From an uncultured Clostridia bacterium (GTDB lineage Bacteria > Bacillota > Clostridia > Oscillospirales > Ruminococcaceae): a DNA stretch of 43,656 bases. Position 1 is the stretch's first letter, and every line of letters begins with the position of its first letter. The notes beneath the pieces are model-generated. The model saw only the letters and a program-made list of their open reading frames with translations. It did no database searches and was not told where the DNA came from. This document shows positions 8,581 to 25,694 of this stretch, piece by piece. Both the position numbers and the translations under genes were made by a program. The stretch is from the NCBI GenBank assembly GCA_944386445.1, contig CALXBD010000111.1, positions 1 through 43,656 of the forward strand. Reading direction: 5' to 3'.

Positions 8581-8616
8581 AACACGCCATGGAGTTGTTC
8601 CATGACGTGTTTTTTT
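8581..8616. terminator. Bidirectional terminator between S51 peptidase and rpiR-type gene
   Basis: A 13-bp stem (8581-8593 with 8599-8611, one mismatch) has a T-run on its right side (8610-8616) and an A-run on its left side, so it can end both converging transcripts. Confidence 0.88.
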
Positions 8617-9484
8617 ATAGTTCAGCGCGGTTACCGTTGACGTGTTTGCGCATCGTCACTAGGCGTGTTTTGTCCAGCTGTTTTTTGACCTTTTCGTAAT
8701 CTCTGCTGGCCACGCAGGTATAAAGCGCGTCAACGATGGTCATCAACGCGATCCTGGATCCCATGGCGCCGCTCCGGATCAAGGTTTCAGAAGCGGAAGC
8801 ATAAAGCTGAATATCAGATTTTTGCGACAAAAGATTTTTGCCATAACGTGTAACAGAAATCATTGTGGCACCGGTTTGTTTTACAATGTCCGCGACTTCC
8901 AAAATGTCGCGCGTGTCTCCTGTATAGGAAAGCATAACAGCGATATCCCCGGCCTTAAGAGTTGTTGCTGTCAAAATTTGATCGTGAGGATCCGAGGTAG
9001 GTAGGGATACCTTGTTGATTCGGAGAAACTTATTTCTGGCGTCCAGAGCCACCAATCCCGAAGTACCGACCCCGTAAAAATCCACACGTCGGGCTTCCGC
9101 GATTTTGTCCACAGCTTTTTCCAGTTCCCCAATATCCAAAACCGCCATAGTGCTTTCGATGGCCTTCATATCGCTCATGCAGACACTTCGGAAAATAGCC
9201 TCCACCGAATCACCGGGGCGGACGTCGTTATAGGCCACTGTCTCCAGCTGGTTCATAGCCAGGTCGGTTGCCAGCATCCGGCAAAGCTCCTTGTAGCCGG
9301 TGTAACCTGCGGACTTGCAAAGCCGGACCACCGAGGAAATGCTGGTTCCGCAGGCAGTAGCCAGCTCTTCGATGGACATGTTGATAGCCTCTTGGGGAAA
9401 ATCCAGGATAAACATGGCGATTTGCTGCTCCTTAAGAGAAAAGGAACTAAGCATTTCTTTCAGTTTCAGGCAGCAGCCGGACAT
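8615..9484 (-). CDS. MurR/RpiR family transcriptional regulator
   Basis: The 289-residue protein has an N-terminal HTH_6 domain (about 1-75, with the recognition segment GTSISSVVRLCKSAGYTGYKE) and a C-terminal SIS sugar-phosphate-binding domain (about 110-260, with VDFYGVGTSG and VMLSYTGDTRDI). RpiR regulators bind DNA under control of a phosphorylated sugar. It is the last gene of the leftward arm of the glycan locus and has its own promoter. The likely effector is a sugar phosphate made by the neighbouring kinase and isomerases, and the likely targets are the promoters in 13758-14082 and its own; this is inference from context. Confidence 0.93.
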   Translation of the reverse strand: MSGCCLKLKEMLSSFSLKEQQIAMFILDFPQEAINMSIEELATACGTSISSVVRLCKSAGYTGYKELCRMLATDLAMNQLETVAYNDVRPGDSVEAIFRSVCMSDMKAIESTMAVLDIGELEKAVDKIAEARRVDFYGVGTSGLVALDARNKFLRINKVSLPTSDPHDQILTATTLKAGDIAVMLSYTGDTRDILEVADIVKQTGATMISVTRYGKNLLSQKSDIQLYASASETLIRSGAMGSRIALMTIVDALYTCVASRDYEKVKKQLDKTRLVTMRKHVNGNRAEL

Positions 9485-9528
9485 GTAAACAACTCCTTTC
9501 CCATAGCGGGCCGACAGAATACAAACTA

Positions 9529-9557
9529 ATTATACACGATTTTTGTGTAAAAAACAA
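9529..9557 (-). promoter_or_regulatory. Promoter of the rpiR-type regulator
   Basis: Reading leftward, TTGTTT (9552-9557) and a perfect TATAAT (9529-9534) are spaced by 17 bases. ACAC...GTGT within the spacer makes a small inverted repeat that could be an autoregulatory site. Confidence 0.72.
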
Positions 9558-9569
9558 TATGTTTCCAGA

Positions 9570-10472
9570 TCAGTATGTTTGAAGAATTGCGCGAACAGTA
9601 CCCAGCAGGGGGGCATTGTCCGGATCTTCGGCCGGGCGAATCTGAGGAATCCACTCCCCATACATTGCTTTTTTCATAGCAGGCAGGAAAAGCTCCGCCG
9701 ATTTGGAAATAGCGCCGCCCAGCAAGAGAAGCTCGAATCGATTCTCAATACAGATATCCTTGAGAATTTCACCCAAAGCAGTACCGAATTCCTCAAACAC
9801 CTGTCGGGATACCGCATCACCCTTTCGAGCCATTCCTGCGATATCCGCTACAGAAGGAAGCGGGGCATCCGGGCGCAGACGGCGGTAATTTTGTTCTAAA
9901 GCCCGTTTAGAAGCGTAATCTTCTGCAATGGAGCCACGGAAGGGCCTGGCAAAGATGCTGATTCCGGGGCCTCCCTGGGGATTCTGAAAAATTTTTCCAT
10001 CAAACATGGAAGCAAATCCCAAACCAGTTCCGATGATGGTTCCGGCAATACGGCTGTAATGCATCCTGTCCTCTCCGGAGACAGCTCCCAGCAGAAATGC
10101 CGTGGAATCGTGCAGAAACTTTATTGGGATTTCTCCTAAAATTTCCTGAAACCAAGGCCGCATGGGCAATCCGAAAATGGCCGCATATTTGTGGGTCATA
10201 GCGCAGACCCCCTCTGCGTACCGGAAAGGCCCCGGGATACAGACAGACACAGCTGTAACAGAAGCACCAAGTTGTGTGGCTGCATCTTTGGCCTGAGCAG
10301 CCAGATTGCGATAGGAGGCGGAGATTTCCTCCGCCGTCCCGTCGGAATTGACCGCCACCTTCAGAAAACTGTCCGGAAGCAGAACGCCCTCTTCCGAAGC
10401 CAGGGCCGCCTTCAAAAAGGTTCCCCCAGCGTCCACTGCCAGAATCAGGGATTTATTCATTTTCATACCCAT
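9570..10472 (-). CDS. ROK family sugar kinase (zinc motif absent)
   Basis: This is an ATP-dependent sugar kinase of the ROK family, of which glucokinases, fructokinases and N-acetylhexosamine kinases are members. The phosphate-binding motif LAVDAGGTFLKAAL is at the N-terminus, and LHDSTAFLLGA contains the probable catalytic Asp; LLLLGGAISKS matches the second ATP-binding segment. The usual ROK zinc motif (CxCGxxGC with a preceding His) is missing: the corresponding stretch reads QGGPGISIFARPFRGS. Three in-frame ATGs compete (10472, 10466, 10460). AAGGATGG just upstream favours 10466 or 10460, and all overlap the end of the PMI gene, implying coupling. Substrate is unknown; an imported hexose is expected. 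Confidence 0.88.
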   Translation of the reverse strand: MGMKMNKSLILAVDAGGTFLKAALASEEGVLLPDSFLKVAVNSDGTAEEISASYRNLAAQAKDAATQLGASVTAVSVCIPGPFRYAEGVCAMTHKYAAIFGLPMRPWFQEILGEIPIKFLHDSTAFLLGAVSGEDRMHYSRIAGTIIGTGLGFASMFDGKIFQNPQGGPGISIFARPFRGSIAEDYASKRALEQNYRRLRPDAPLPSVADIAGMARKGDAVSRQVFEEFGTALGEILKDICIENRFELLLLGGAISKSAELFLPAMKKAMYGEWIPQIRPAEDPDNAPLLGTVRAILQTY

Positions 10473-12300
10473 CCTTCAGAAGGGTCTTGTGCATGGTAAT
10501 GACGCCGACGCCTTCATTGATGACTTCATATGGGCCGAACCCTGCGGGGACGATGACCATATCCAAATAGTTCTGGTGGAAGCAGCGGCTGGGGTCTGTC
10601 AGAGAACGGATCAGGCACTTTTCGCCTTCCACCAGTACCAGCACATGGAACCGGTCGGTAGTCTCATCGGTGTACCGCTCCGGGAACCGGACATTGCGGA
10701 GGCTGAAATAGATAAGCTCATGTTCGCCCACGATATATTCCCGGAAGCCGTCGCCTTCCCGGATGGTCCGAGGTGCCTGGATAAAGTTTTCCTTAACCCA
10801 GTTTTCACGGAAATCCCTGCGCAGCACCTTGTCACCATGATAGGTGTGAATGGGCCGGAGATTTCCGTCCAGATCCTTGCGCATGTAGTCGTACATCTTG
10901 TAGGTATAGGAACCAATCGTCAAGCTGCCGATTTCGAGGATCACCTGATTGCGGCCGGAAGCGTGGATGGTGCCTGCCGGGATAAGGAACTGCATCCCCG
11001 GACGAGACGGCTCTGAGTAAACATACTGATCGTGGTCGAAGCCTTCACCGTATTTTTCCGCTCGCCGGGCTTTGGCGATAAACTCTTCCACGTCGGCATT
11101 CTGCCGGAAGCCGCAGTAAGTTTTTGCTTCCTGACCGGTGACGACCATATAATAGCTCTCATCCTGCCGGCCCAACTCATCGTTATTTTCCTTGACGTAT
11201 TTCCCGTCGGGATGGCACTGGATAGACATGTTCCCGCTGGCATGGAAGGTATCGTCATAATTGAAGCGGATGGGGAAGTAGCCGTTAAATTTTTCAGCCA
11301 CTTGTTTTCCCATCAGTTTAGGTCCGATGATCTGCACGAAGAAATAGAAGGGGAATTCCAGCTGGAGTCCATCCAGATCTGCAACGATGGAAACCTCCAT
11401 GGGGATCAGATCGAAAACCCAGGCGCAGTTGCGCATTTCTTCCGGCAGGTTCCGCAGATGCTTCACATAGAATCCACCCCAGACGCCTTCGATATAGACA
11501 GGTTTGCAGCGCAGAGGCTGGTCTGTCATGGTTGAGAACAGTTCTTTCAGCTCCGGGATCGGCAGAGCCTGGATCTCATCCGGATGGTCACCGGTAAGAT
11601 AGTAGTCCACTTCCTCATTGCGGACTAACTTTCCGCGGTGGGCGGCGACTGCTTCAAAATCCACATAGTAGCTGTGGCGGATCATCTCATTTGGCGAACG
11701 CCGTTCCGGGAACCCCAGGTTTCCGCAGGAGCCGTTGCGGATATTGAGAATGGTCCGTTTCTGAGTCATGTCGATGAACAGCCTAAGATCGCACAAGGGC
11801 CGGAAGGCGTCAAGCAGCGCGCCATTGCCCCAAATAATCAGCAAGCCTTTGCCATTTTTGGAAAACGCTTCTATTTTTGAAGCCATTGCGGCGATTTTTT
11901 CAGTGTCCATCAAGCCTTCCAAGCCGTCATGGTACAAGCGTCCATAAAGGAGCGGGGGGTCTGTTTCCCTGTCTTCCGGCAGATAATGGAGCAGCTTGTC
12001 ATGAAGAGTTTTGCTATCCAGATACAAGGCTTCTGTAGAGAGGGATTGGGCCTCCATTCCCGCCTGGAATGCCAGCAGCGACAAAAGCCCACGAAATCGG
12101 TCCAGAGGAGCGCTGATATATCCGTCCAGGCCGATGATGCAGCGGCCTTTTTCTTTTATAATTGCTGCAGCATCCCGCAGAATTCGTTTTGCACTGGCTG
12201 TCGTGTCGGTGGAAATGGCTTCACGCAATGCCTGTGAATAGGGAACGTGGTTGATTGCATCGGGATCGTCGTAAGGATAGGGATTGAACATGAAACTCAT
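10453..12300 (-). CDS. Mannose-6-phosphate isomerase with N-terminal degenerate kinase-like domain
   Basis: The 615-residue protein is far longer than a standard class I phosphomannose isomerase (about 300-390). The C-terminal part (about 265-615) has PMI/cupin features: VWGGFYVKHLRN, MSIQCHPDGKY (like the zinc site of LSVQVHPDD), and AGTIHASGRNQVILEIG. The N-terminal 250 residues resemble a uridine-kinase-type P-loop fold (LLYGRLYHDGLEGLMD, LLIIWGNGALL, LCDLRLFIDMTQKRTI), but the P-loop position (about 54-65) reads IIGLDGYISAPL and lacks GKS/GKT, so it is unlikely to bind ATP in the usual way. Start 12300 has AGGAGG eight bases upstream. The enzyme would interconvert mannose-6-P or a related sugar phosphate with a ketose phosphate; the N-domain could be a sensor or structural. 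Confidence 0.85.
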   Translation of the reverse strand: MSFMFNPYPYDDPDAINHVPYSQALREAISTDTTASAKRILRDAAAIIKEKGRCIIGLDGYISAPLDRFRGLLSLLAFQAGMEAQSLSTEALYLDSKTLHDKLLHYLPEDRETDPPLLYGRLYHDGLEGLMDTEKIAAMASKIEAFSKNGKGLLIIWGNGALLDAFRPLCDLRLFIDMTQKRTILNIRNGSCGNLGFPERRSPNEMIRHSYYVDFEAVAAHRGKLVRNEEVDYYLTGDHPDEIQALPIPELKELFSTMTDQPLRCKPVYIEGVWGGFYVKHLRNLPEEMRNCAWVFDLIPMEVSIVADLDGLQLEFPFYFFVQIIGPKLMGKQVAEKFNGYFPIRFNYDDTFHASGNMSIQCHPDGKYVKENNDELGRQDESYYMVVTGQEAKTYCGFRQNADVEEFIAKARRAEKYGEGFDHDQYVYSEPSRPGMQFLIPAGTIHASGRNQVILEIGSLTIGSYTYKMYDYMRKDLDGNLRPIHTYHGDKVLRRDFRENWVKENFIQAPRTIREGDGFREYIVGEHELIYFSLRNVRFPERYTDETTDRFHVLVLVEGEKCLIRSLTDPSRCFHQNYLDMVIVPAGFGPYEVINEGVGVITMHKTLLKDGYENE

Positions 12301-12335
12301 ACAGAAAACCTCCTATGTAATTGGTGTGGTTACCA

Positions 12336-13757
12336 TTAAAGACGAGTGAATGAGAAGCCCATCAGGCGGGCAAGGACTTCCAACTGAGCGGTATAGTCTC
12401 CGTCCACGATACCGTAGTGCTGCGTAACGCCTGTTTCCAGCAGCTTTTGGAAGAAGGGACGAAGCTCTCCTTCGGCAGGGCGGAACAAGCCGTGGGAGTA
12501 GGATGTGATGAAATGCCGGCCAGGGAGCCCGTCTACTAGGCCGCAGACCATTTGGAAGGAGCCGTCCTTCTGAGAGATATGCAGCATTGTTTTCCGTCCG
12601 GGAGGAATGAGATACCAGGCAAAGGGTGCCCCTGCATGTTTATAAGAAGTTTTTGCAAAACGCACATCCCGGGCAATTAAGACCTTCCCGGCAGGGTCTG
12701 TATAGTCGTTTGGACCGGCATGACCGCCTGCAAAGCAGTTGTTGGGCAGGTCAATATGGAAAGGCTCGATAAAGCTGACGGGCTTGCCGGACAGCAGCCG
12801 CAGGATATAGACAGCCAGCCCTCCGCCGATGTCGCCTTCAGGAACCACCGGGACGTCACCGCCTTCCGGTGTCGGAATAAATCCTGGCCGGAGACCCACT
12901 TCTGTCAGCAGAACCGGATCTACATCATTTAAAACGACCATATCAGCGCCCACATTGCGTCCGGTATTTTCCAGTGCGATGGAAGCCCGAACAGAAGCCG
13001 CAAATTTATCCGGATCCACATCAGGCAGTACCTCGTAGCGGTCTGACAGCATTTTGCAGGCTCTTTTGACATCTTCTTCCGGAATCCGGTCAATTTCCTG
13101 AGTCAACGTTGCCACGGAAAGGAAACGCAGCTCCGGCCCTGCCTTTTGAAATAGGGCATAAGGATCCACATAGGTAGACCACATGACCTCATTATAGCAA
13201 GCCATCAGGGCGAAGGTAGATTTGCGCAGTTTAGTGCGAACCATTGCGGCCCGGCAGAAATCTTCTGCTTTTGCAGCAAGTTCATCTAATGTGCCGATGG
13301 CAGTTTCCAGCATGGGGCGGTCGAAGCGCCGCACAGATCCGGAGGCTTCCAGAGCGCCTACCAAACCGCCGGCTGACAGATATTCTACAAAATCGCTTTC
13401 TGATTCTGTATTCGTAAAATCGATGGAATCCCGGATCTTGCTGGCAAAGAGGATGGGAATAGGAGGCATATCGCGTAAAAAGCGTACCCAAAGGAAATCC
13501 TCAGACCAGGAAAGAAAGAGGGCAAAAATGCAGTCCACTTTTTCCCGCTGGAACAGATCCATTGCAGCCGCCAGATCTTCACGGGTATAGAGCGGGCCGG
13601 GGCAGACAGGGGTACAAAATTTTTTCATTGACAAAATGAACGCGTCTGTTTCTGCGAGCTTTCTTTTTTCGTAACTGCCTTCCGGCGTATCTGCTCCCAA
13701 CGCCCGAAATCGGGAAGTTGCAATCAGCAGAACGCCCATTTTTCCGTTTTCTATCAA
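12336..13757 (-). CDS. L-fucose/L-arabinose isomerase-like protein
   Basis: This is a 473-residue member of the FucI/AraA isomerase fold, which interconverts free aldoses and ketoses with Mn2+. Support comes from the long C-terminal region with VVPEGDIGGGLAVYIL, FIEPFHIDL and CFAGGHAGPND, giving acidic and His residues in family-like order. The start is set at TTG 13757, seven bases after GGGAGGG; ATG 13739 is the alternative. The frame extends further to 13904, but that part is poly-A/T leader crossing the promoter and is unlikely to be translated. It is the first gene of the leftward arm, 36 bases before the PMI gene. The actual sugar is unknown. Confidence 0.8.
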   Translation of the reverse strand: MIENGKMGVLLIATSRFRALGADTPEGSYEKRKLAETDAFILSMKKFCTPVCPGPLYTREDLAAAMDLFQREKVDCIFALFLSWSEDFLWVRFLRDMPPIPILFASKIRDSIDFTNTESESDFVEYLSAGGLVGALEASGSVRRFDRPMLETAIGTLDELAAKAEDFCRAAMVRTKLRKSTFALMACYNEVMWSTYVDPYALFQKAGPELRFLSVATLTQEIDRIPEEDVKRACKMLSDRYEVLPDVDPDKFAASVRASIALENTGRNVGADMVVLNDVDPVLLTEVGLRPGFIPTPEGGDVPVVPEGDIGGGLAVYILRLLSGKPVSFIEPFHIDLPNNCFAGGHAGPNDYTDPAGKVLIARDVRFAKTSYKHAGAPFAWYLIPPGRKTMLHISQKDGSFQMVCGLVDGLPGRHFITSYSHGLFRPAEGELRPFFQKLLETGVTQHYGIVDGDYTAQLEVLARLMGFSFTRL

Positions 13758-13800
13758 GATAAATCCCTCCCATAAGTCATCTAAAAATATCGACATTTTT

Positions 13801-13829
13801 AATATACAAAGAATTTTTCCAAACGTCAA
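13801..13829 (-). promoter_or_regulatory. Promoter of the leftward sugar-metabolism arm
   Basis: On the minus strand, TTGACG (13824-13829) and TATATT (13801-13806) are separated by 17 bases, about 45 bases upstream of the isomerase start. Confidence 0.8.
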
Positions 13830-13832
13830 TAG

Positions 13833-13861
13833 TTTTTCGAAAAAAATATTCAAAATTGAAT
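13833..13861. promoter_or_regulatory. Candidate operator palindromes in the divergent region
   Basis: The region 13758-14082 has no gene and is extremely AT-rich. Next to the leftward -35 box lie a perfect 12-base palindrome TTTTTCGAAAAA (13833-13844) and an inverted repeat ATTCAA-AA-TTGAAT (13848-13861). Either could be the RpiR-type regulator's operator, but palindromes arise easily in A/T tracts. Confidence 0.4.
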
Positions 13862-14008
13862 GTTTTTTTATTTTTTGAAAAAATAACAAGTTTCTAAAAA
13901 ACAATGCAAATTACTCAGAATTTACTTTGATTTTAAAATATAAATAGCTTTTTTAAATAATTTTAAAAAAATAATTTGAAAAAATTTTTTTGAAATTGAA
14001 AAAACTAC

Positions 14009-14037
14009 TTGATTTTTTCGTCGTAATTCGTTATCAT
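14009..14037 (+). promoter_or_regulatory. Promoter of the rightward transport/hydrolase arm
   Basis: TTGATT (14009-14014) and TATCAT (14032-14037) are spaced by 17 bases, about 45 bases before the first permease. Confidence 0.68.
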
Positions 14038-14082
14038 GGTTTTATAAAGATACACAAAATGATTTTGGCAGGAGGATGAAAA

Positions 14083-15048
14083 ATGGACAAATCAACAAAT
14101 CAAGTAATTACGACTGTTCCACGTTCCACCGTCTGGTCACGGCTGATTGCCTATATGAAACGCGACTGGATGCTTTATGTCATGTTTCTGCCAGGTTTAG
14201 CTTATTTCGTGATTTTCAAGTATCTTCCGATGTATGGCGTTACGATTGCTTTCAAGGATTACAAAATCGGCATGGAGATACTGGAGGCGCCTTGGGTTGG
14301 ATTCAAGCATTTTGCGGATCTGTTTGGGCGTACTGCATTTCAGCGGGCGTTTTGGAACAATATCATTATCAGCATACTGAAGTTAGTCGTAGGCTTCCCG
14401 TTTCCCATTATTCTTTCGCTGATGATCAATGAGATTCGGAGCAGTAAAGCGAAGAAATTCGTTCAAACTTCTGTGATTCTCCCCAACTTTGTTTCCTGGG
14501 TTGTAGTATACGGATTGTTTTATGCAATTCTTTCGCCCAATGCCGGCGTTTTGAAGGATATCTTGGGATTGTTTGGCTATTCGGGCAGTGTCCCGAATCT
14601 TTTGGCCAGCCAGTCGGCAGCCCGTCCGATCATTGTGTTGTCCCACGTGTGGAAAGGCGCAGGCATGGGGACCATTGTTTACCTGGCCGCCATTACCGGG
14701 ATCGACCAGGGGCTGTATGAAGCGGCTGCTATTGACGGAGCCGGGCGTTGGCGGCAGATGTGGCATATCACTTTATCCAGTATCCGGTCGACGATCGTAG
14801 TGCTGTTGATTTTCCGGCTTGGTGAGATGATGTATGCTGGATTTGACCAAGTCTTTGTTTTCAGCAACGACGCGATTATCAGCAAAATTGATATTATCGA
14901 TACTTATGTTTACCGTCTGGGCCTTCAGGACCGGAAATACGGCATTTCTACTGCGGCAGGACTGTTCCAGTCATTGATCGGGCTGTGCCTAGTACTGTTT
15001 ACCAACTGGATTGCCAAAAAAGTAGATCCCGACAGCGGTATTATGTAA
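14083..15048 (+). CDS. Sugar ABC transporter permease (LplB-type, CUT1)
   Basis: The 321-residue integral membrane protein is the first of two permeases of a CUT1 oligosaccharide importer. It has about six membrane segments starting near residue 30 and the EAA loop LYEAAAIDGAGRWRQMWHIT near residue 210, where the shared ATPase docks. The opening (MKRDWMLYVMFLPGLAYFVIF) and the LplB/YtcP-like pattern fit importers that use a large binding lipoprotein. The start follows AGGAGG at 14071-14076. No ATPase gene is present in the window, so a shared MsmX-type ATPase elsewhere is expected. Confidence 0.93.
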   Translation: MDKSTNQVITTVPRSTVWSRLIAYMKRDWMLYVMFLPGLAYFVIFKYLPMYGVTIAFKDYKIGMEILEAPWVGFKHFADLFGRTAFQRAFWNNIIISILKLVVGFPFPIILSLMINEIRSSKAKKFVQTSVILPNFVSWVVVYGLFYAILSPNAGVLKDILGLFGYSGSVPNLLASQSAARPIIVLSHVWKGAGMGTIVYLAAITGIDQGLYEAAAIDGAGRWRQMWHITLSSIRSTIVVLLIFRLGEMMYAGFDQVFVFSNDAIISKIDIIDTYVYRLGLQDRKYGISTAAGLFQSLIGLCLVLFTNWIAKKVDPDSGIM

Positions 15049-15070
15049 TCTGGGAAAGGAGAATTGAGTT

Positions 15071-15970
15071 ATGGCACGTTCTAAGCTGAAACCTGCTACT
15101 GCCGGCGGTCGAGTTGGCAACATCATTATTGGAATTTTTCTGGGGCTGATGGTGGTTATAACGATTTATCCGTTTTGGCATGTTATCATGTATTCTCTTT
15201 CCGATTCCCATGCTTCCATGAGCGGCGGCATTTTTCTCTGGCCGCGGGATTTTTCCTTGCTGTCCTATCAGCAGCTGTTAAGTACAAAGCAGATTTACGT
15301 CTGTTATCGGAACAGTATTCTGAAAACAGTTGTGGGCACAGGTATATCTCTGATTTTGACAGCCCTTACCGCTTATCCGTTGTCGTTGAGGCGTTTTAAA
15401 GGCCGCAATTTCTTCTGTATGATGATTTTCTTTACGATGCTTTTTAACGGCGGTTTGATTCCTACTTACCTGCTGATTAAAGACCTGCATCTGCTGGACA
15501 GCTTCTGGGTATATGTCCTGCCCGGAGCCATGAGCGCTTACAACCTGTTTATTCTGCGGAATTTCTTCCAGTCGATTCCGGCTTCCCTGGAGGAATCTGC
15601 CCATCTGGATGGAGCGAATCCATTCCAGATCCTGTTTAAGATCGTTTTACCGTTGTCTTTGCCCTCTTTGGCTGCGCTGGCGATGTTCTACGGAGTGGGA
15701 CTCTGGAATGGTTATATGGATAATGTCCTTTATGTCAATAATCAAGACCTTCAGCTGCTCCAAAACTACCTTCGTCAGCTGATTGCTGCCGCGGGGGCAA
15801 AGAGCGGTACGATGAGTGAAATGTCCAATATTGGTGCGGCGGCCCGCTTGACGGAGGAAACCGTTAAGATGACTGTTATTACAGTATCGGTCGTTCCTGT
15901 GCTTGTCGTTTATCCGTTCCTGCAGAAATACTATACCAAAGGTGTCATGGTAGGATCGGTTAAAGGTTAA
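15071..15970 (+). CDS. Sugar ABC transporter permease (LplC/YtcP-type, CUT1)
   Basis: This 299-residue protein is the second permease of the importer. It has six predicted membrane spans and an EAA-type loop (EESAHLDGANPFQILFKIVL near residue 178). The C-terminal PFLQKYYTKGVMVGSVKG is the characteristic ending of this permease subfamily. AAAGGAG lies 11 bases upstream of ATG 15071, and the gap to the first permease is 22 bases. Confidence 0.94.
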   Translation: MARSKLKPATAGGRVGNIIIGIFLGLMVVITIYPFWHVIMYSLSDSHASMSGGIFLWPRDFSLLSYQQLLSTKQIYVCYRNSILKTVVGTGISLILTALTAYPLSLRRFKGRNFFCMMIFFTMLFNGGLIPTYLLIKDLHLLDSFWVYVLPGAMSAYNLFILRNFFQSIPASLEESAHLDGANPFQILFKIVLPLSLPSLAALAMFYGVGLWNGYMDNVLYVNNQDLQLLQNYLRQLIAAAGAKSGTMSEMSNIGAAARLTEETVKMTVITVSVVPVLVVYPFLQKYYTKGVMVGSVKG

Positions 15971-15997
15971 ATTTCAAGAATAAAAAGGAGGATTCCC

Positions 15998-17560: not shown

Positions 17561-17574
17561 GGTGTCATGAGAAG

Positions 17575-17607
17575 CCGGGAACCAGCAGCGGCTGGTCCCC
17601 GGTTTTT
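17575..17607 (+). terminator. Intra-operon terminator after the binding protein
   Basis: CCGGGAACCAGC pairs with GCTGGTCCCCGG (one mismatch) around a 4-base loop, followed by TTTTT. Placed between transport genes and enzymes, it likely gives partial readthrough. Confidence 0.85.
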
Positions 17608-17646
17608 GACTGACCGGCAGCAGCCGGCGGAAAGGCGGAGAGATAC

Positions 17647-19725
17647 ATGAGCAAACAAACAATCCAGCTTGAACAGTGGAAATTCCTTCAGGGAACCGGA
17701 GTAAAGGACGCTGAAGGGCTTTTGGCAAAACCCGATGCAGAAGGCTTTATTCGTCTGGAATTGACAGGAGAAAAAAGCCGGATGGGCGGGGTCAGCTGGA
17801 CACCGGAACAATATCTGGTAATTGACATGCTGGCGGATATGGACGCCATGACGACGGTAGACGTTTTGTTTTTCAAGGAAAAGCCTCTGGAAGAAGGGGA
17901 AAGAAATACCTTGAACTATCATATGATTCCTACCCGTCGGGTAAAAATGGTTTTAAAGCTGGATGAGCTGGCTTCCCGCCGCTTCTTCCTTCCGACCCTT
18001 CCGGGCACTTTAAAGGGACATTCCAACGGCCGGCCGACGTCTATTGAGGAAATCAATCGGATCGAGATTTTGGTTCATCCCGGATACAGCCACTATTTTA
18101 ACTCGCTGCGGCTGTATGAGATCTATCTGGCGGATGAGCTGCCGGATATGACGGTGATCGGGGAACCAATGGTGGATGAGTTGGGGCAGTGGATTCAAAA
18201 GGACTGGAATACCAAGACCCACAGCGTGGAGGAACTGGTCACCTATCTTCACAGCGAGTACGAAAAGGCGAAAGAAGGGGCATCGTATCCGGAAGGCTGG
18301 AGCCGGTATGGCGGCTGGCTGGATAAGAAATTCGACACGACCGGATATTTCCATACGCATTATGATGGCCGCCGTTGGTGGCTGGTGGACCCGGATGGAT
18401 ATGCGTTCATTTCCAACGGTGTCTGCTACGGCTCCCGGATGGGCGTACATGGCTTTGTGGATCGGATGGAGAATCTCTTTTCCTGGCTGCCTGCTAAGGA
18501 TGATCCGGAGTATCGGGACGCATGGACGACTGCCGACCAGATCGCGGAATTTGTCAAGCGCAACGGCGCGGAAGCCGGAAAGGGCAGATATATGTTCAAC
18601 TTTGCCCGAGCCAATATGATCCGAGCTTTCGGAGCTGACGGATGGTGGAATGCCTGGGTCACCATCAATGCCGCCCGGCTGAAAAACTGGGGCTTTAACA
18701 CCATCGGCGTAGGAGTAAACAACTATTTTGACGAACATGTTATGGAATATCTGGCCAAAGCGGAGATTCCGTTTGTCTGGACACTGAAGGAGTTCCCGCA
18801 GACAAAAGAGAAAATTTTCCGAGATTTCCCCGACGTTTACGCGGAGGAGTACGCGGAAAATTCCCGGATCTTTGCGGAGAATCAGCTTTCTCCCTTCGTC
18901 GGAAACCCGTACATGATCGGTTACTTTGTCAATAATGAACCGGAGTGGAAGTTCCAGTATATCAACCTGGCGGAGCGTACCTTTGCGCATCCTTCACATC
19001 TGGCAACGAAGGATGCTCTGATCGGCTGGCTGAAGGAGAAATATGGGACGGTTTCCGCTTTGAACGCAGCATGGAACCGGCAATATGCAGCCTTCGAGGA
19101 CTTGCTGAAGCCGGAAGAAATGCTGGATACGTCCAGCGAGGCAGCTGCAGAGGATTTTGCCCAGATGCACGCTGTTTTGTTGGAAAAGTATGCTCAGGTA
19201 CCCGGAGATGCCCTGCATAAGGTGGATCCGAACCATCTGAATTTGGGAATGCGGTTTTCCAGCGTCAGCGAGCGAGAAATGGCCGGTTGCGAGTGTTATG
19301 ATGTATTTTCCTTCAACCGGTATGCTCCCAATGCCACAGAATCCCTGGAATTGGCTTCGTCTATCAGCAATATGCCGATGATTATCGGCGAATGGCATAT
19401 CGGCGGAGGCGATAAGGGGCTTTTGTCCAATGGGCTTCTTTCTGCTCCCACGCAGGAAGAGCGCGGGAAAGCATGCGCTTTCTATATGGAAGGAGCGATC
19501 AGCAATCCCAATTGCGTCGGACTTCATTATTTTGAAATGAACGACCAGCCGTTGCTGGGGCGTTTCGATGGGGAGTGCATGGAGCACGGTATCATCGATA
19601 TCTGCAACCGGCCTTTTGACGAACTGGTAGCACATTTCAAGGACGTTTCATCGAAGCTTTATGCTTTGGCGGACGGACAGGAAGAACCTACCCAGATTCA
19701 AGGAACCATCTGGTACAGCCGCTAA
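17647..19725 (+). CDS. GH50/agarase-like glycoside hydrolase, cytoplasmic
   Basis: The 692-residue protein has a beta-sandwich-like N-terminal region (about 1-190) and a TIM-barrel hydrolase domain of clan GH-A type. The probable acid/base is Glu431 in GYFVNNEPEW and the probable nucleophile Glu582 in MIIGEWHIGGGDKG; the pair resembles GH50 beta-agarases as I recall them, though GH42-like families were considered. There is no signal peptide, so it should act on imported oligosaccharides. GGAGAG precedes ATG 17647. It heads the enzyme section of the operon. Agar as substrate is unproven: no GH117 or sulfatase gene is present in the window. Confidence 0.72.
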   Translation: MSKQTIQLEQWKFLQGTGVKDAEGLLAKPDAEGFIRLELTGEKSRMGGVSWTPEQYLVIDMLADMDAMTTVDVLFFKEKPLEEGERNTLNYHMIPTRRVKMVLKLDELASRRFFLPTLPGTLKGHSNGRPTSIEEINRIEILVHPGYSHYFNSLRLYEIYLADELPDMTVIGEPMVDELGQWIQKDWNTKTHSVEELVTYLHSEYEKAKEGASYPEGWSRYGGWLDKKFDTTGYFHTHYDGRRWWLVDPDGYAFISNGVCYGSRMGVHGFVDRMENLFSWLPAKDDPEYRDAWTTADQIAEFVKRNGAEAGKGRYMFNFARANMIRAFGADGWWNAWVTINAARLKNWGFNTIGVGVNNYFDEHVMEYLAKAEIPFVWTLKEFPQTKEKIFRDFPDVYAEEYAENSRIFAENQLSPFVGNPYMIGYFVNNEPEWKFQYINLAERTFAHPSHLATKDALIGWLKEKYGTVSALNAAWNRQYAAFEDLLKPEEMLDTSSEAAAEDFAQMHAVLLEKYAQVPGDALHKVDPNHLNLGMRFSSVSEREMAGCECYDVFSFNRYAPNATESLELASSISNMPMIIGEWHIGGGDKGLLSNGLLSAPTQEERGKACAFYMEGAISNPNCVGLHYFEMNDQPLLGRFDGECMEHGIIDICNRPFDELVAHFKDVSSKLYALADGQEEPTQIQGTIWYSR

Positions 19726-19738
19726 GGAGGAAAGTAAA

Positions 19739-20563
19739 ATGATCGATTTTAAACTGGACAATCACGAGAATAGCCTTTTGCCGGAAGGATATTCCTGGAA
19801 GTTGGTTTGGCATGACGAGTTTGACGGCACGGAGTTGGATCGCAGCAAATGGGATTTCCGGCTCCATTTGATGCAGAAGAGACACAAAACCTTTACCGAT
19901 GAAGGCGCAGTTCTGGACGGCAACAGCAATCTGCTGCTGAAGCTGATCAAAAAAGACGGACAATTCTATTCACCGCATCTTCAGACCGGAGAAAACTTCA
20001 TGGACCGGCCTGTGGAAAAAGGAGATGGGGATTACTCCAAACAATTAAGTTGGCCCATTGCTAAACTCAACGAGCCGAAATTCCTCCATCGGTACGGATA
20101 TTATGAGATCCGCTGCAAATTCCAGCAGCAGCCTGGTTGGTGGTCGGCATTCTGGCTGCAGTCGCCGATCATCGGATGCTGCCTTGACCCTGGGATTGCC
20201 GGCGTAGAGCTGGATATCATGGAGAATTTCACCCGGGATGGCGTTATCAGCCACAATCATCACTGGAATGGCTATGGTGTCCAGCATGAATGGGTTGGTT
20301 CTGGAAATATCCAGACAGAGGAGACGGAGGACGGATACCATCGTTTCGGATTGCACTGGCGTCCGGACGGATATACCTATTATGTGGACGGAAAAGAAAC
20401 ATGGCATATTGACGGGCCAGTGTCTCATACTCCGGAGTTCATTCTGGTTTCTACGGAGTGTATGGGATACCGGGATGGCGATCATCCCAGTGAAGCATTG
20501 GCTGCTGTTACAGAAGATGACGCATTTGTAGTGGATTATGTTCGGGTATTTGACGAGGTATGA
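19739..20563 (+). CDS. Glycoside hydrolase family 16 protein, cytoplasmic
   Basis: GH16 enzymes cleave beta-1,3/1,4 bonds in glucans and galactans (lichenase, laminarinase, agarase, porphyranase, keratan-type endo-beta-galactosidase). The 274-residue protein carries the catalytic ExDxxE motif as ELDIME, with Glu157 nucleophile, Asp159 and Glu162 acid/base. WHDEFDGTELD near residue 24 and GYYEIRCKFQQQPGWWSAFWL before the active site are typical. ATG 19739 is chosen because AAGGAGG overlaps the stop of the previous gene; the longer frame from 19661 lies inside that gene. There is no signal peptide, which is uncommon for GH16 and implies an intracellular oligosaccharide substrate. Confidence 0.93.
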   Translation: MIDFKLDNHENSLLPEGYSWKLVWHDEFDGTELDRSKWDFRLHLMQKRHKTFTDEGAVLDGNSNLLLKLIKKDGQFYSPHLQTGENFMDRPVEKGDGDYSKQLSWPIAKLNEPKFLHRYGYYEIRCKFQQQPGWWSAFWLQSPIIGCCLDPGIAGVELDIMENFTRDGVISHNHHWNGYGVQHEWVGSGNIQTEETEDGYHRFGLHWRPDGYTYYVDGKETWHIDGPVSHTPEFILVSTECMGYRDGDHPSEALAAVTEDDAFVVDYVRVFDEV

Positions 20564-20575
20564 GGAGGAATCCTT

Positions 20576-22672
20576 ATGTATCAGTTGAAGAACGAATTCC
20601 TGACTGCCGGGTTTGATGATCAGGCCCGGCTGGTCTTTTTGGAAAACAATCAGCGGGGTACGGGGAATATCGTGGATTCTCCGGCCAAAGATGGCTTCCA
20701 GATGGTATTCTGCAAAGGTGAGGACTGGGAAAACGCGGTTTTTGGTCATGAGCAGGTTTTTACTGTCCGGGAAGAAGAAAATCGCCTGACTTTTTTCTGC
20801 GGGCAGTGTCTGTCTGAGCGGGCTGCGGCCCAGGTCGGTGTTACACTGACGGTAGAACTTGACGGCGCGCATTTGAATTTTGGGGCGTCGCTGCAAAATG
20901 AGGATGACGTATTGGTCACGGATTTTACATATCCGGTAATCGGGACGATCAAATCATTAGGCAGTGAAACTCCGCCGGCTTTGCTCTTCCCCTGCCATTG
21001 CGGCGAGCGTTATTCCAATGTAGGGGAATATCTGTCCCGGATACCGCGTTCCCGGGAAGCCCATCCCCAAAGTCTTTCCCTCAGCTATCCCGGCGGCCAC
21101 GGCCGTGGAGGAAGCATGCAGTGGATCGCCTTGACAGATGACCGTCAGACCTTGGCTTTTTCCGGACGGGATACGCTTTTTTACACCTCTGAATTCAGGG
21201 TGGAAGGGACTGCCGGCGACCGGGGCGCTGTCACTATGATGCTGACAAAGCTCCCCTTTGTCAAAGCAGGGGAGACCTGGGAAGCTCCGCCCGTGTTAGT
21301 CAGCCTTTATGCGGGAGATTGGCATCAGGCGGCCCGGGAATATCGGGAGTGGGCGGAAACCTGGCGCAATGTGCATCCCAAACCGGAATGGATCAAAGAT
21401 ATGCGGGGCTATTTCCTGGTGATCAATAAGCAGCAGTTCGGTACGGAGATGTGGCGCTATGATGAGCTACCCAAACTTTACGAATTGGCTCAGGCCCACG
21501 GCTTTGATACTTTAGGGCTGTTCGGCTGGTACGATTCCGGCCATGACAACCAGTATCCGGACCTGAAGGTCAGCGACTCTCTGGGCGGAGCGGAGTGCCT
21601 GAAGGAGAATATCCGCAAGGTCCAGGCATCCGGCGGACACGTGACGCTGTATCAGCAGGGGCACCTCATTGATGTTACCACTGATTTTTACAAAAACGGC
21701 GGCAGCCGGTATGAATCGGTGAGCCGATGGGGAATGCCATATTTTGAAAGCTATAATAAATCTCATAAAAGCCAGTTTTTGGCCAACTATACCAATAAAA
21801 CCTTTTCCAATGCCTGCCCCAGCTGTCCGGAGTGGCAGGAACTGATGGAGGAAAAGGCAAAATTTGTTGCCGAGTTCGGAGCAGATGGCGTTTTGTACGA
21901 CCAGATCGGTGGGATGTACGCGTATCCTTGCTTCAACGAAGAACACCCTCATGCATTGGGAAAACCATCCCTTTCCATGTCTCAGGGACGGATCCAGCTG
22001 TTAGACCGTATCCAGAAGCAGACCAAGCAAATCAGCCCGGAATTCTGCTTCATGACGGAGCATGTCACGGATCTGTATTCGGCGTTTGTGGATTGTCTGC
22101 ACGGAATGTATCTGGGGCCGTTTCCGCAGGGCGCCCGTGAAAAACTTGCAGAAGGCACAGAGCCGGAATGTGTCAATTACCCTGAATTGTTCCGCTATTG
22201 CTTCCCATCCACCGACGTGACATTGCGCAACTGCAATCCCTATGTTCCGCCGCGGGCAGCCAATTATACCTTCCTGTTCGGCCTGAAAATGGAAATGGAG
22301 GTCCGCTACCAGGACGACAAGGACGATATATTGGCGGATCGCTGGCCGGAATACCGGGAATACGTAAAAAAGGTTGACAGCCTGCGGGCCAGATACTGGG
22401 ATATTTTCAGCCGGGGAGAATTTGTAGATGAAGATCCGTTGGAAAACGCCTGCCCGGGACTGCTGGCGAAAGCCTTTGTCAGCGGAAACCACATGGTCAC
22501 GGCCCTTTGGAACGATTCGGAGCAGCCGGTTTGGCTGAAAGGGTTCCGTGCTCCCGGCTGGGGGGCAACAGAGGCGGCTACAGTGGATGCAGCGTACTCA
22601 TCGCTGCCGGAGCAGTTGGGGCCGGGAGAAATCCTTGCCGTTCTGTGGGAAAAGGAAGGGAAGGTGAACTGA
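20576..22672 (+). CDS. Putative glycosidase, DUF6259-like, copy 1
   Basis: The 698-residue protein resembles a family I recall as DUF6259, large proteins of uncharacterised function found in glycan loci. Layout: N-terminal beta-rich region (1-250), a TIM-barrel-like middle with LFGWYDSGHDNQYPDL, YQQGHLIDVTTDFY, then GADGVLYDQIGG (Asp442) and FCFMTEHVTDLYS (Glu495), and a C-terminal beta domain. Asp442 and Glu495 lie at strand-end-like positions and are shared with copy 2, so they are the best catalytic candidates. There is no signal peptide. GAGGAGG overlaps the GH16 stop. It directly abuts its paralogue. Function as a hydrolase is inference. Confidence 0.75.
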   Translation: MYQLKNEFLTAGFDDQARLVFLENNQRGTGNIVDSPAKDGFQMVFCKGEDWENAVFGHEQVFTVREEENRLTFFCGQCLSERAAAQVGVTLTVELDGAHLNFGASLQNEDDVLVTDFTYPVIGTIKSLGSETPPALLFPCHCGERYSNVGEYLSRIPRSREAHPQSLSLSYPGGHGRGGSMQWIALTDDRQTLAFSGRDTLFYTSEFRVEGTAGDRGAVTMMLTKLPFVKAGETWEAPPVLVSLYAGDWHQAAREYREWAETWRNVHPKPEWIKDMRGYFLVINKQQFGTEMWRYDELPKLYELAQAHGFDTLGLFGWYDSGHDNQYPDLKVSDSLGGAECLKENIRKVQASGGHVTLYQQGHLIDVTTDFYKNGGSRYESVSRWGMPYFESYNKSHKSQFLANYTNKTFSNACPSCPEWQELMEEKAKFVAEFGADGVLYDQIGGMYAYPCFNEEHPHALGKPSLSMSQGRIQLLDRIQKQTKQISPEFCFMTEHVTDLYSAFVDCLHGMYLGPFPQGAREKLAEGTEPECVNYPELFRYCFPSTDVTLRNCNPYVPPRAANYTFLFGLKMEMEVRYQDDKDDILADRWPEYREYVKKVDSLRARYWDIFSRGEFVDEDPLENACPGLLAKAFVSGNHMVTALWNDSEQPVWLKGFRAPGWGATEAATVDAAYSSLPEQLGPGEILAVLWEKEGKVN

Positions 22673-24730
22673 ATGTATCGTCTGGAAAACGCCTGTCTTT
22701 CGGCGGAGTTTGACGACCGGGGACGGTTGACAGAGCTGGCATGTTCGGAATACAATGTGATTGATTCCCCGGCCGCAGACAGCTTCCGGCTAGTGTTCCG
22801 AAAAGGCGGGAACTGGGAAAACGTGGTTTTTGGCCACGAGCAGGAGTTCAATACCGACCTGTCCGGGGATGAGTTGCGGTTCCATGCGGAACGTCTCCGC
22901 TGCCGGGACGGTTCTTCTGCGGAGATTGCACTGACGCTGGTAGTGAAGCTTACAGAGGATCGCCTGCGGTTTTGGGCCGAAATTGACAACCGGGATGAGG
23001 ATGCCCTGATTACGGATTTTGAGTATCCCAATGTCGGCGTGATCAAATCCCTGGGCGGCGGGAAGCCGGCGTTGCTTTTCCCCAACCAGAGCGGTACCCG
23101 GATTTCCAATATCGGAGAATACCTGTCCCGTCGCGGTCCCAGCCGGGAGCAGGGAAACTGTACCTTCAGCGAGACCTATCCCGGCCATGCATCCATGCAG
23201 TGGATGGCGTTGGAAGACAGCGGGTACACGCTGTTCCTTACCAGCTATGACGCGGAACATTATGTGACTGCAATGACTGCCCGGGGAAGCGTTGAAGACA
23301 GGGGCGCTGTCACCTTGCTTTTTGACAAGATGGCCTTTGTGAAGCCCGGGGAACATTGGGAGTACCCTGAAGCTGCCCTGATGCTTTATCAGGGTTCATG
23401 GCGCAGGGGCGCTGATGCATATGTAGCATGGTCGCGGACCTGGCGGCCTGTTCATAAGGTGCCGGATTGGGTCCGGAATATGACAGGTTATTATCTGGTC
23501 ATTATGAAGCAGCAGTACGGCAGTGAAATGTGGCCGTATTCTTCTATCCCGCAGCTTTACGCTATGGCCCGGGAAAATGGCTGCGATACGGTGGGCTTAT
23601 TCGGATGGTACGATTCCGGTCATGATAACCAGTACCCAGACCTGAAGGAGAGCCAGTCTATGGGCGGCGCCGAAGCCCTGCGGGAAGGAATCCGTCAGGT
23701 GCGGCAGCAGGGCGGAAATGTAACGCTGTATCATCAGGGGCACCTCATTGATGTTTCCACGGAATTCTATCGGAAAACTGGAAATCGAATCATTACCCGC
23801 AGTAAAGACGGGATGCCTTATTATGAACAACATAATAAGGCGCATAACAGTACCTATCTGCGGCTGTTTACCAGGAAAACCTTTACGACAGCCTGCCCCT
23901 GCTGTCCGGAGTGGCAGGAAGTGATGAAGGAAAAAACCGAATGGATTGCTTCTTTTGGCCCCAGCGGAGTCCTTTTCGACCAAATCGGAGGGATCCCGCC
24001 TCGCCCGTGCTTTGATGAGCGGCATCCGCATCCCAAGGGGAAGCCGTCCTTGTCGGTATCCGGGGGCCGAAAGCAGCTTCTGGACGTGATCCAAAAGCGC
24101 AGCAAGGAGATCGACTCGGAATACGCCTTTTTCAGCGAGCATATTACCGATATTTATTCGGCTTACCTGGACGCGCTCCATGGTATCTCCGCTTATCCCG
24201 GCGAGGAAGGGGAACGAATTGAGACAAGTGATGAGCCCATGCAGCAAAATTATCCGGAGCTGTTCCGGTATTGCTTCCCGGAGGTTGTGATTACGCTGCG
24301 GAACCAGCGGCCCTGGATTGAGCGACGGGCTGTCAACTATGCGGCGGTTTTTGGATTCCGGTATGAGATGGAGGTCCGTTATGAGGCCGACCGTCAGGAC
24401 GTTTTGGCAAACCGGTATCAGCAAGAAGCTCTTTACGCTAGAAGGATAACAGAACTGCGGAAGCGGCATTGGAATTTGGTGGGGATCGGACAATTTGTCG
24501 ATACACAGCCGTTGGAGCAGAAGAATCCCGCGATCATCGCAAAAGGATATGAAAACGGGGATCAGCTGGCGGTAGTCCTTTGGAATGACAGTTCTGAAGA
24601 GCAGGCGTTAGCGCTGACGGTGCCGGGCTGGACGCTGGAGGAAACAGATACAGAAAATGGCCCCGTGAGTGGGATTCCGGCGAAAATGGCGCCTCAGCAG
24701 CTGCTGGTCTGCGTTTATCGAAAGGAATGA
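22673..24730 (+). CDS. Putative glycosidase, DUF6259-like, copy 2
   Basis: The 685-residue product is a diverged tandem paralogue of the preceding gene, collinear over its whole length; by eye about half of residues match in the core (LFGWYDSGHDNQYPDL and YPELFRYCFP are identical). Candidate catalytic residues are Asp436 in GVLFDQIGG and Glu489 in AFFSEHITDIYS. The start ATG immediately follows the previous TGA, with AAGGTG upstream, so translation is coupled. Differences cluster at the N-terminus and after the Asp motif, consistent with a changed specificity. No signal peptide is visible. Confidence 0.75.
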   Translation: MYRLENACLSAEFDDRGRLTELACSEYNVIDSPAADSFRLVFRKGGNWENVVFGHEQEFNTDLSGDELRFHAERLRCRDGSSAEIALTLVVKLTEDRLRFWAEIDNRDEDALITDFEYPNVGVIKSLGGGKPALLFPNQSGTRISNIGEYLSRRGPSREQGNCTFSETYPGHASMQWMALEDSGYTLFLTSYDAEHYVTAMTARGSVEDRGAVTLLFDKMAFVKPGEHWEYPEAALMLYQGSWRRGADAYVAWSRTWRPVHKVPDWVRNMTGYYLVIMKQQYGSEMWPYSSIPQLYAMARENGCDTVGLFGWYDSGHDNQYPDLKESQSMGGAEALREGIRQVRQQGGNVTLYHQGHLIDVSTEFYRKTGNRIITRSKDGMPYYEQHNKAHNSTYLRLFTRKTFTTACPCCPEWQEVMKEKTEWIASFGPSGVLFDQIGGIPPRPCFDERHPHPKGKPSLSVSGGRKQLLDVIQKRSKEIDSEYAFFSEHITDIYSAYLDALHGISAYPGEEGERIETSDEPMQQNYPELFRYCFPEVVITLRNQRPWIERRAVNYAAVFGFRYEMEVRYEADRQDVLANRYQQEALYARRITELRKRHWNLVGIGQFVDTQPLEQKNPAIIAKGYENGDQLAVVLWNDSSEEQALALTVPGWTLEETDTENGPVSGIPAKMAPQQLLVCVYRKE

Positions 24731-24737
24731 GAAAGAA

Positions 24738-25568
24738 ATGATTGTTCTTGAAACAGGAGCCTGGCAGGCGGCAATCTGGCCGGAACGAGGAGCCCGGGTT
24801 ATGCGGCTTGCCTTCCATGGGCAGCCTATATTGAGAGAACCGGTTTCTTCAGAAGACCTGGACAAAAACCCAATGGTTTATGGGATTCCGTTTCTATTTC
24901 CTCCGAATCGGACAGACGGCGGTAGATTTTCCTTTGAAGGCAAAGAGTATCGCCTTCCTGTCAATGAACCCCAATGGAACAATCATATTCATGGCCTGTT
25001 TGCGGACGCACCTTTTGAAGTGGTCGAGGAAGGAAAAGATCGACTGCTTACAAAAGTGGAAAATAAGGGGAATTTGTTTCCGTTCCCTTGTAGGGTGGAA
25101 ATGCTGGACCTTCTTACAGAGAAAGGGTTCCGGCGGGAAACGAGGATCATAAATACCGGTTCCGGGAGAATGCCGGTGGAGATCGCGTTCCATACAACCT
25201 TTGCCAGTGGGGAATCGGTTCAGGTTCCGCTGGCTCTCCGCTGGGAAACCGATGAACGTTACCTGCCAACGGGACGCATGCTTGCCTTATCCTCTTGGGA
25301 GGAGCAGCTTTGCTTGGGAGCGGATACCAGAGGGCAGATCGTGTCAGGATTTTATACGGCCGCGGGACATACCGCCCAGATTGGAGATTTCCTCTATACG
25401 GTATCGGAAAATTTTACGGATTGGATCACCTTTAACGGTAAAGGGCAGGAATGGATCTGTCTGGAGCCGCAGAGCGGGCCAGTCAATGGGTTGAATCTTC
25501 CAGGAGGATGTACTGTTTTGGAACCGGGAGAAGAGATCAGCTTTTGGCAGGAAATTCGAAAAAATTAA
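24738..25568 (+). CDS. Aldose 1-epimerase family protein
   Basis: This 276-residue galactose-mutarotase-like protein interconverts alpha and beta anomers of free sugars. The likely catalytic residues are His83 or His85 in NNHIHGLFAD and Glu243 in CLEPQSGPVNGLN; FLFPPNRTDGGRF matches the family's N-terminal substrate loop. ATG 24738 follows AAAGGA near the stop of the preceding gene; the longer frame from 24669 would overlap that gene by 62 bases. It is the last gene of the rightward arm. Its role would be to supply the right anomer to the isomerase or kinase of the leftward arm. Confidence 0.9.
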   Translation: MIVLETGAWQAAIWPERGARVMRLAFHGQPILREPVSSEDLDKNPMVYGIPFLFPPNRTDGGRFSFEGKEYRLPVNEPQWNNHIHGLFADAPFEVVEEGKDRLLTKVENKGNLFPFPCRVEMLDLLTEKGFRRETRIINTGSGRMPVEIAFHTTFASGESVQVPLALRWETDERYLPTGRMLALSSWEEQLCLGADTRGQIVSGFYTAAGHTAQIGDFLYTVSENFTDWITFNGKGQEWICLEPQSGPVNGLNLPGGCTVLEPGEEISFWQEIRKN

Positions 25569-25614: not shown

Positions 25615-25694
25615 CCGCATATATGGGAACACATCATAAGTTATTACATAGTATGGAAAGAAGGTAACCAGTGTATAGAGAAAGGGGGAGAATT

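Follow-up and report, generated by a model that had tools for sequence, protein, structure and literature searches.

Analysis of a 43,656-nucleotide stretch of DNA from an uncultured Clostridia bacterium of the Ruminococcaceae (assembly GCA_944386445.1, contig CALXBD010000111.1; the whole stretch is referred to as the window) reveals a real, conserved and uncharacterised glycan-utilisation locus of 12 genes, which are arranged in two divergent arms and span positions 8615–25568 as intact open reading frames (ORFs). We give about an even chance to the reading that this locus imports short oligosaccharides with alpha- and beta-linked galactosyl-type residues and hydrolyses them fully in the cytoplasm. 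The plus-strand arm codes for two permeases, a lipoprotein, a GH50-like enzyme, a GH16 enzyme, two DUF6259 enzymes and a mutarotase, and the minus-strand arm for an AraA-like isomerase, a fusion protein with a C-terminal class I mannose-6-phosphate-isomerase-like domain (PMI fusion), a ROK kinase and an RpiR regulator. The genes named in the first-pass annotation of this DNA are all present as intact ORFs, and the ROK kinase, RpiR regulator, lipoprotein (SBP_bac_1), GH16, both DUF6259 enzymes, epimerase and permeases score above their Pfam cut-offs, whereas the isomerase and the PMI part reach no curated threshold. Its mention of four large hydrolase-like proteins is correct in the number of hydrolases but not in the size of the GH16 enzyme, which is 274 residues long from its start at 19739.

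In the mechanism that we propose, the lipoprotein and the two permeases would import the oligosaccharide with an ATPase encoded elsewhere, no transport ATPase gene being seen within the locus. The GH16 enzyme (probably endo-acting) and the GH50-like enzyme (probably an exo-acting, retaining enzyme of clan A) would cut the beta-galactosidic links, and the two DUF6259 enzymes may take off the alpha-galactosyl-type residues. The freed aldose would be equilibrated by the mutarotase, and the AraA-like isomerase, the ROK kinase and the PMI fusion might then feed at least one of the hexoses set free into glycolysis, with the RpiR regulator presumably sensing a sugar phosphate and controlling the arms.

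Conservation of the locus as a unit

A contig search with the GH50-like protein across genomes gave 34 pattern matches and 11 loci (loci and genomes carry L and G numbers, respectively). Parts of the arrangement are kept in 11 related loci (10 clostridial and one spirochaetal), one of which, L005 from the Oscillospiraceae, keeps all 12 genes. In the GH50 tree, where some outgroup branches are long, nine of the 11 loci from the search form one clade with the window (support 100/100), standing apart from the two Flavobacteriaceae proteins and from five other GH50-like proteins of the window's class. Among the ten members of this clade the three transport genes are present in nine, the isomerase, the PMI fusion and the RpiR regulator in eight each, the ROK kinase and DUF6259 in seven each, the mutarotase in five and GH16 in three. 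L007 ends at a contig edge, and a partial isomerase together with a PMI-fusion piece is located on one other contig of its genome; from the genome of L002 (G829) both the isomerase and the PMI fusion are missing as close matches. Because the gene neighbourhoods are kept in other genera, a chance arrangement is ruled out. The first-pass annotation had taken the locus for one unit with two arms, and this is borne out by the parts kept in the 11 related loci: homologous genomes do keep the genes together.

The degree of identity differs from gene to gene. Between the window and L002 it is 85 and 88% for the permeases, 77% for the lipoprotein, 82% for GH50 and 51% for GH16, and between the window and L005 it is 78 and 83% for the permeases, 67% for the lipoprotein, 60% for GH50, 75% for GH16, 73% for the isomerase and 81% for the PMI fusion. 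The locus therefore seems, from such sequence comparisons, to be a mosaic whose parts may have been swapped between loci. The window locus has a single RpiR gene, and a second one, 57–58% identical to that of the window, faces the transporter operon in L003, L004, L010 and L012.

Matches to the PMI fusion at E 1e-20 were found in 40 of 391 genomes of the class, three of which (the own genome included) carry a protein that is at least 68% identical. The other two of these, at L047 and L049, are accompanied by isomerase, ROK, RpiR, transporter, GH16 and two DUF6259 genes, with no GH50 in the locus; one of the two genomes, G356, has two GH50-like genes elsewhere (38–41% identity). A second GH50-like lineage, 40% identical, was observed in G356 (L088, 9868–17932) within a few kb of a gene of the alpha-L-fucosidase family. 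Among 398 genomes of the phylum a close isomerase is found in the own genome only, and one other genome gives a 24% match. An isomerase of at least 50% identity is present in ten of 14 genomes picked for GH50-like or PMI-fusion genes; the four without it are G829 and G421, G438 and G430, the latter three having distant GH50-like proteins only. The locus is accessory, because GH50-like proteins occur in just four of 61 relatives (own genome included) and in none of six genus mates. An empty-site test could be made in the three of these six that have enough flank upstream of ScpA; the locus is absent there in all three and no clean boundary was found. The gene arrangement at this place is the same in L100 and L101 and a different one in L099.

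Hydrolases of the import arm

The GH50-like enzyme (17647–19725, plus strand, 692 residues) is homologous from residue ~134 to ~672 to the solved GH50 beta-agarases 5z6p (E = 5e-55) and 4bq2 (E = 5e-53) and also scores above the Pfam GH42 cut-off (37.4 vs 21 bits). Its catalytic glutamate candidates, E431 and E582, are invariant in 12 sequences. E431 aligns with a Glu of 4bq2 and a Gln of 4bq4, and E582 with the second agarase glutamate, positions which we take to be the catalytic acid/base and nucleophile glutamates of agarases; a DGE...G stretch of the agarases is kept as well. However, in contrast to the agarases, the window protein has no signal-like N-terminus, belongs to a clade of its own and comes from a cytoplasmic ABC locus where neither GH86 nor GH117 was recognised. 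The GH16 enzyme (19739–20563, plus strand) passes the Pfam GH16 cut-off (51.9 vs 22 bits) and has the ExDxxE motif in the form ELDIME.

The two DUF6259 enzymes, A (20576–22672, 698 residues) and B (22673–24730, 685 residues, both on the plus strand), are 49% identical to each other. No Pfam family other than DUF6259 scores above cut-off for them, there is no convincing match among solved sequences, and no paper on DUF6259 was found in the literature searched. The structure predicted for A (pLDDT 81.5) has a GH36/GH129-like fold. The best Foldseek matches in the PDB include FpGalactosaminidase (8x1b, 5.8e-28), 3,6-anhydro-D-galactosidase (5opq, 1.3e-26; named ZgGH129 in entry 8rzk), the alpha-galactosaminidase 9awt, GH36 alpha-galactosidases from 3.0e-25 and NagBb from 5.5e-22. 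The likeness to these alpha-galactosidases and alpha-(N-acetyl)galactosaminidases lies in the fold (top three matches 5.8e-28 to 1.3e-26) and perhaps in an invariant Asp/Glu pair, whereas sequence identity to the top three is only 13–14% and the Pfam family is one of unknown function. D442 and E495 of enzyme A are invariant in eight sequences, as are other Asp and Glu residues, and may be the catalytic pair. The arm ends with the aldose 1-epimerase (mutarotase, 24738–25568, plus strand, 276 residues).

Proteins that look by eye like clan-A glycosidases were observed in three other loci: near the PMI fusion in L051 (7932–9554) and L053 (11447–13045), and between GH16 and the mutarotase in L049 (5553–6935). 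Those of L049 and L053 have no Pfam match above cut-off.

Import and probable cytoplasmic location of the hydrolases

Permease A (14083–15048, 321 residues), permease B (15071–15970, 299 residues; both BPD_transp_1) and the solute-binding lipoprotein (15998–17560, 520 residues) are all on the plus strand. The lipoprotein has a hydrophobic N-terminus with a lipobox-like Cys, and AlgQ1/AlgQ2 are among its solved relatives.

As a proxy for a signal peptide, other than SignalP, we used the maximum 11-residue hydropathy within the first 45 residues. It is 0.51 for the GH50-like enzyme, 0.29 for GH16, 0.35 and 0.55 for the DUF6259 enzymes and 0.82 for the mutarotase, compared with 2.91 for the lipoprotein and 2.32–2.84 for four signal-bearing controls, two of which (L008 and L009) are GH50 relatives from Flavobacteriaceae. 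The 23 relatives of the hydrolases that were put in all have values of at most 1.25; this set is without L005 for GH50 and without L007 and L012 for DUF6259, and each ORF was taken to begin at its first start codon. Thus, the earlier statement that the hydrolases lack signal peptides agrees with the proxy (0.29–0.55 for all four), and its suggestion of import followed by cytoplasmic digestion agrees with the lack of signal-peptide-like N-termini on the four hydrolases and the 23 relatives alike.

The scavenging of fragments from other microbes that the first-pass annotation suggested is a conjecture, and a large secreted protein is present beside the cluster in some of the related loci. In Ruminiclostridium/Anaerobacterium-type loci a very large secreted-type protein lies 3' of the import operon; in R. 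cellobioparum it has 2325 residues (L081, 1237–8214), with domains of the LTD, metallophosphatase, fn3 and SLH families but none of a glycosidase. LTD and metallophosphatase domains are also found in L004 (17437–22115), and a piece of the same lamin-tail/metallophosphatase-type secreted protein was recognised by eye in L003 (20133–21271). In L047, a gene between two DUF6259 genes (3636–6842) codes for a protein that begins with a signal-like N-terminus and has a domain of metallo-beta-lactamase fold. The secreted partners in R. cellobioparum and L047 name no glycan.

Isomerase, PMI fusion and ROK kinase

The fold predicted for the isomerase (12336–13739, minus strand, 467 residues, likely start 13739) is that of an L-arabinose isomerase: all 33 best Foldseek matches of its model (pLDDT 65.6) are L-arabinose isomerases, with a top E of 2.3e-20, and L-fucose and D-arabinose isomerases come next in rank. 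Residues E301, E325, H340 and H441 are invariant in eight sequences. Global alignment with AraA failed, and a local profile alignment with five AraA sequences (388 columns, E 0.009, HH probability only 4.5) puts on these four residues the positions which we take to be the metal ligands of AraA. In predicted fold and metal-ligand positions the protein is therefore like AraA (7cxo, 4r1o, 2ajt); however, it is only 13–16% identical to AraA, falls below the AraA_central cut-off (12.3 vs 24 bits) as well as the NCBIfam cut-offs, and coexists with canonical AraA in seven of 11 carriers. The isomerase profile gave no useful match against solved sequences, and no PF02610 match was found in the own genome.

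Since seven of the 11 carriers already have canonical AraA, the rare isomerase is not simply their L-arabinose isomerase, and we lowered that candidate. Similarly, 11 of 12 genomes carry a galactokinase domain, which would make the isomerase dispensable if galactose were the only sugar, and replacement of the Leloir pathway was lowered as well. Sulfoquinovose isomerase was rejected because of its score (14 bits; cut-off 700).

The PMI fusion (10453–12300, minus strand, 615 residues) resembles the class I mannose-6-phosphate isomerase ManA in its C-terminal domain (E 1.6e-10 to 1qwr), which keeps the site residues: the His of the HP motif, a Glu, the His of GTxHA and the Arg of YDYxR, presumably metal and active-site residues. 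Unlike ManA, it scores far below the cut-off of the curated ManA equivalog (24.3 vs 116.2 bits) and carries an N-terminal extension of ~250 residues, which matches no family and looks by eye like a degenerate P-loop kinase. It is followed by the ROK-family sugar kinase (9570–10472, minus strand, 300 residues).

A fuller version of our reading, which is tentative and on the whole unlikely to hold in every part, is that these three proteins form an undescribed hexose route for a sugar of a mixed alpha/beta galactan, an aldose (galactose or a rarer hexose) that is isomerised before phosphorylation by a new AraA-type enzyme, that DUF6259 is a new alpha-galactosidase-like GH family, and that both arms are under one locus-specific RpiR operator at the -35 boxes.

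Promoter element and regulation

A conserved promoter/operator-like element (13801–13843, minus strand) is present 5' of the isomerase in six loci (window, L003, L004, L005, L010 and L012), where it reads TTTTCGAAAA(T)ACTATTGAC with small differences. Its end is at the same time the -35 box of a promoter of the sigma-70 type, whose spacer measures 17 bp and whose -10 box is of TATA type. In the window, TTTTCGAAAAACTA adjoins the -35 box TTGACG (13829–13824), which is followed by a 17-bp spacer and the -10 box TATATT (13806–13801). A degenerate pattern of the element occurs exactly once per genome in six of 12 genomes, always 5' of the isomerase, and the reversed control occurs nowhere; the pattern is absent from G042, G356, G829, G833, G834 and G836. 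Only the once-per-genome occurrence is independent evidence, because those six loci also served to build the pattern. The element may be the operator of the RpiR/MurR-family regulator (8615–9484, minus strand, 289 residues, HTH_6 and SIS domains).

The import arm has a promoter-like site (14009–14037, plus strand, TTGATT-17-TATCAT), a consensus match only, with GAAAAAACTAC just 5' of it, and a GAAA-rich stretch is seen by eye at the same position in the import-arm promoters. A general promoter scan of the region gave 20 sites vs 17.1 in shuffles, which is no excess. L047 and L049 have a different, perfect palindrome, TGAAAATATTTTCA, between the PMI fusion and a permease.

Nature of the glycan and alternative explanations

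Galactose is favoured by the GH50 homology, the predicted DUF6259 and AraA folds and the gene content of L002, where an SDR gene and a D-galactonate dehydratase gene (358.9 bits, cut-off 311) lie directly 5' of permA at the operon start and a GH42-like gene is also present. The first-pass annotation had hinted at a beta-galactan. The GH50 link and the galactose theme stand, the latter through the DUF6259 fold and the galactonate dehydratase, but they point to mixed alpha/beta galactosyl links rather than to a beta-galactan, and GH16 leans elsewhere.

Several observations weigh against our reading. Among curated models GH16 fits a beta-1,3-1,4-glycanase best, at a score well short of the cut-off (47 vs 700 bits), and among solved structures 6t2n and beta-1,3-glucanases come nearest (E 7e-10 to 8e-8), none of these being a galactanase, with kappa-carrageenase lower in the ranking (E 1e-5); moreover, GH16 is kept in only three of ten GH50 loci. 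The SDR of L002 is known by family only, so that its role as a galactose dehydrogenase is putative, and the same locus has GH20 and GH65/GH95-like genes, which widen the range of possible glycans. L006 (genome G833) keeps the isomerase, but its locus lacks the ROK kinase and the PMI fusion, and G833 as a whole gives no PMI-fusion match. The presence of canonical AraA and of galactokinase domains described above, relatives of the PMI fusion beside GH38-type genes, from which mannose may take part too, and an extra ManA-type ORF of 318 residues, recognised by eye right after GH50 in L011, are of the same tendency. Genes of the PfkB, GntR, 6PGDH-type and DHDPS families 5' of the isomerase in L006 do not settle the sugar. 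Overall, clues of galactose, mannose, glycerol-glycoside and amino-sugar type do not agree on one glycan.

It is possible, if somewhat unlikely, that the glycan contains both mannose and galactose (a galactomannan, a fungal or algal mannogalactan, or a gum), with the ROK protein as mannokinase, the PMI fusion as true mannose-6-phosphate isomerase and the isomerase serving a separate sugar. The ManA site residues kept in the PMI fusion suit this explanation, as does the finding that distant PMI-fusion relatives adjoin a ROK kinase in several genomes, two such pairs, in L054 and L057, having GH38-type genes nearby (one full GH38, one N-terminal domain match only). The ManA-type ORF of L011 and a GH130 gene ~7 kb past the cluster in G042 point the same way. 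However, no mannan-type hydrolase was recognised by Pfam in the window locus (the flanks of relatives were not tested systematically), and L006 and L002 have GH50 loci in genomes without a close PMI fusion.

Seaweed galactan oligosaccharides (agar, porphyran or carrageenan) freed by other gut microbes are an improbable substrate, and agar itself is unlikely. GH50 homology to agarases and the place of a 3,6-anhydro-D-galactosidase among the best DUF6259 folds would argue for them, and two distant GH50 relatives come from Flavobacteriaceae of marine habit. The locus clade is nevertheless apart from these Flavobacteriaceae GH50s, and several carriers are named Ruminiclostridium and Anaerobacterium, land-dwelling cellulose degraders. 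A passage of PMC11333855 places GH50 in surgeonfish-gut Bacillota_A, and one in PMC6952198 counts GH86 and GH117, along with GH50, among the keystone enzymes for agar. Neither GH86 nor GH117 was recognised with Pfam and NCBIfam in 8615–25568 (the libraries may lack a GH117 model, and the search was not genome-wide), nor was any sulfatase or anhydrogalactose-pathway gene recognised in the locus with the same libraries. With the partner genes not recognised in the locus and land-dwelling carriers, an agar/porphyran locus was rejected as first choice.

Galactolipid head groups (mono- and digalactosylglycerol of plant membranes), a highly improbable substrate, would be treated by DUF6259 removing alpha-1,6-galactose and the GH50-like enzyme removing beta-galactose, with glycerol left. 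The alpha- and beta-galactosidase-type folds suit digalactosylglycerol, and the genes that come after the import operon of R. cellobioparum (L010) are one for glycerol dehydrogenase (533.9 bits, cut-off 336), one for DhaK and, by eye, a DhaL-like ORF. Other genes are found at that place in the window and L003, however; GH16, the ROK kinase and the PMI fusion are left unexplained, and no paper on galactolipid head-group use was found by title.

Least probable are host mucin O-glycan fragments, with GH16 as O-glycan endo-beta-galactosidase, DUF6259 as alpha-N-acetylgalactosaminidase and the GH50-like enzyme as beta-galactosidase: 6t2n, the best solved GH16 relative, is an enzyme that we take to act on mucin O-glycans (the entry itself says GH16 family protein only), the DUF6259 fold resembles blood-group galactosaminidase and NagBb, and L002 has a GH20 hexosaminidase-family gene, but Pfam and NCBIfam recognised in the locus no gene for an amino-sugar deacetylase or deaminase or for a fucosidase, and carriers among free-living cellulolytic clostridia meet no mucin.

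Relation to known loci

In architecture and logic (solute-binding protein, permeases, cytoplasmic GHs and regulator) the locus is like the Gram-positive glycan-utilisation loci familiar to us, so that its general class is known, whereas its enzyme set and sugar-entry arm were not found described in the literature searched, which took in few subscription papers. The earlier view that the gene set is not a described pathway agrees with this; new leads lie in the enzyme set, the role of DUF6259 and the sugar-entry arm. The locus may represent a sugar-use pathway that is common to several anaerobes and unstudied. DUF6259 gains a testable function and the rare isomerase family a genomic context. 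Our analysis also suggests that GH50-type enzymes work inside the cells of anaerobes that do not live on seaweed, and GH50 in metagenomes would be no seaweed marker unless its neighbours are checked. Should galactose or some rarer hexose prove to be the sugar, several clostridia would have an extra entry route into glycolysis.

Gene starts and flanking regions

Ribosome-binding sites are clear at most genes of the locus and weak at the isomerase. In three genes the most likely start lies 3' of the longest-ORF start: the isomerase (13739, not 13904), GH16 (19739) and the mutarotase (24738). The GC content of the flanks varies as much as that of the locus, and the genes examined in the flanks include those for UvrA, SecD/SecF, NrdR, ScpA, TruB, riboflavin kinase/FAD synthetase and IF-2. 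Directly 3' of the locus (25671–26366, plus strand) a collagen-like protein is encoded, with a weak match to the spore-surface domain BclA_C (27.7 bits vs a Pfam cut-off of 38), and an RNase P RNA of bacterial class A is located just past the locus at 26792–27120 on the minus strand.

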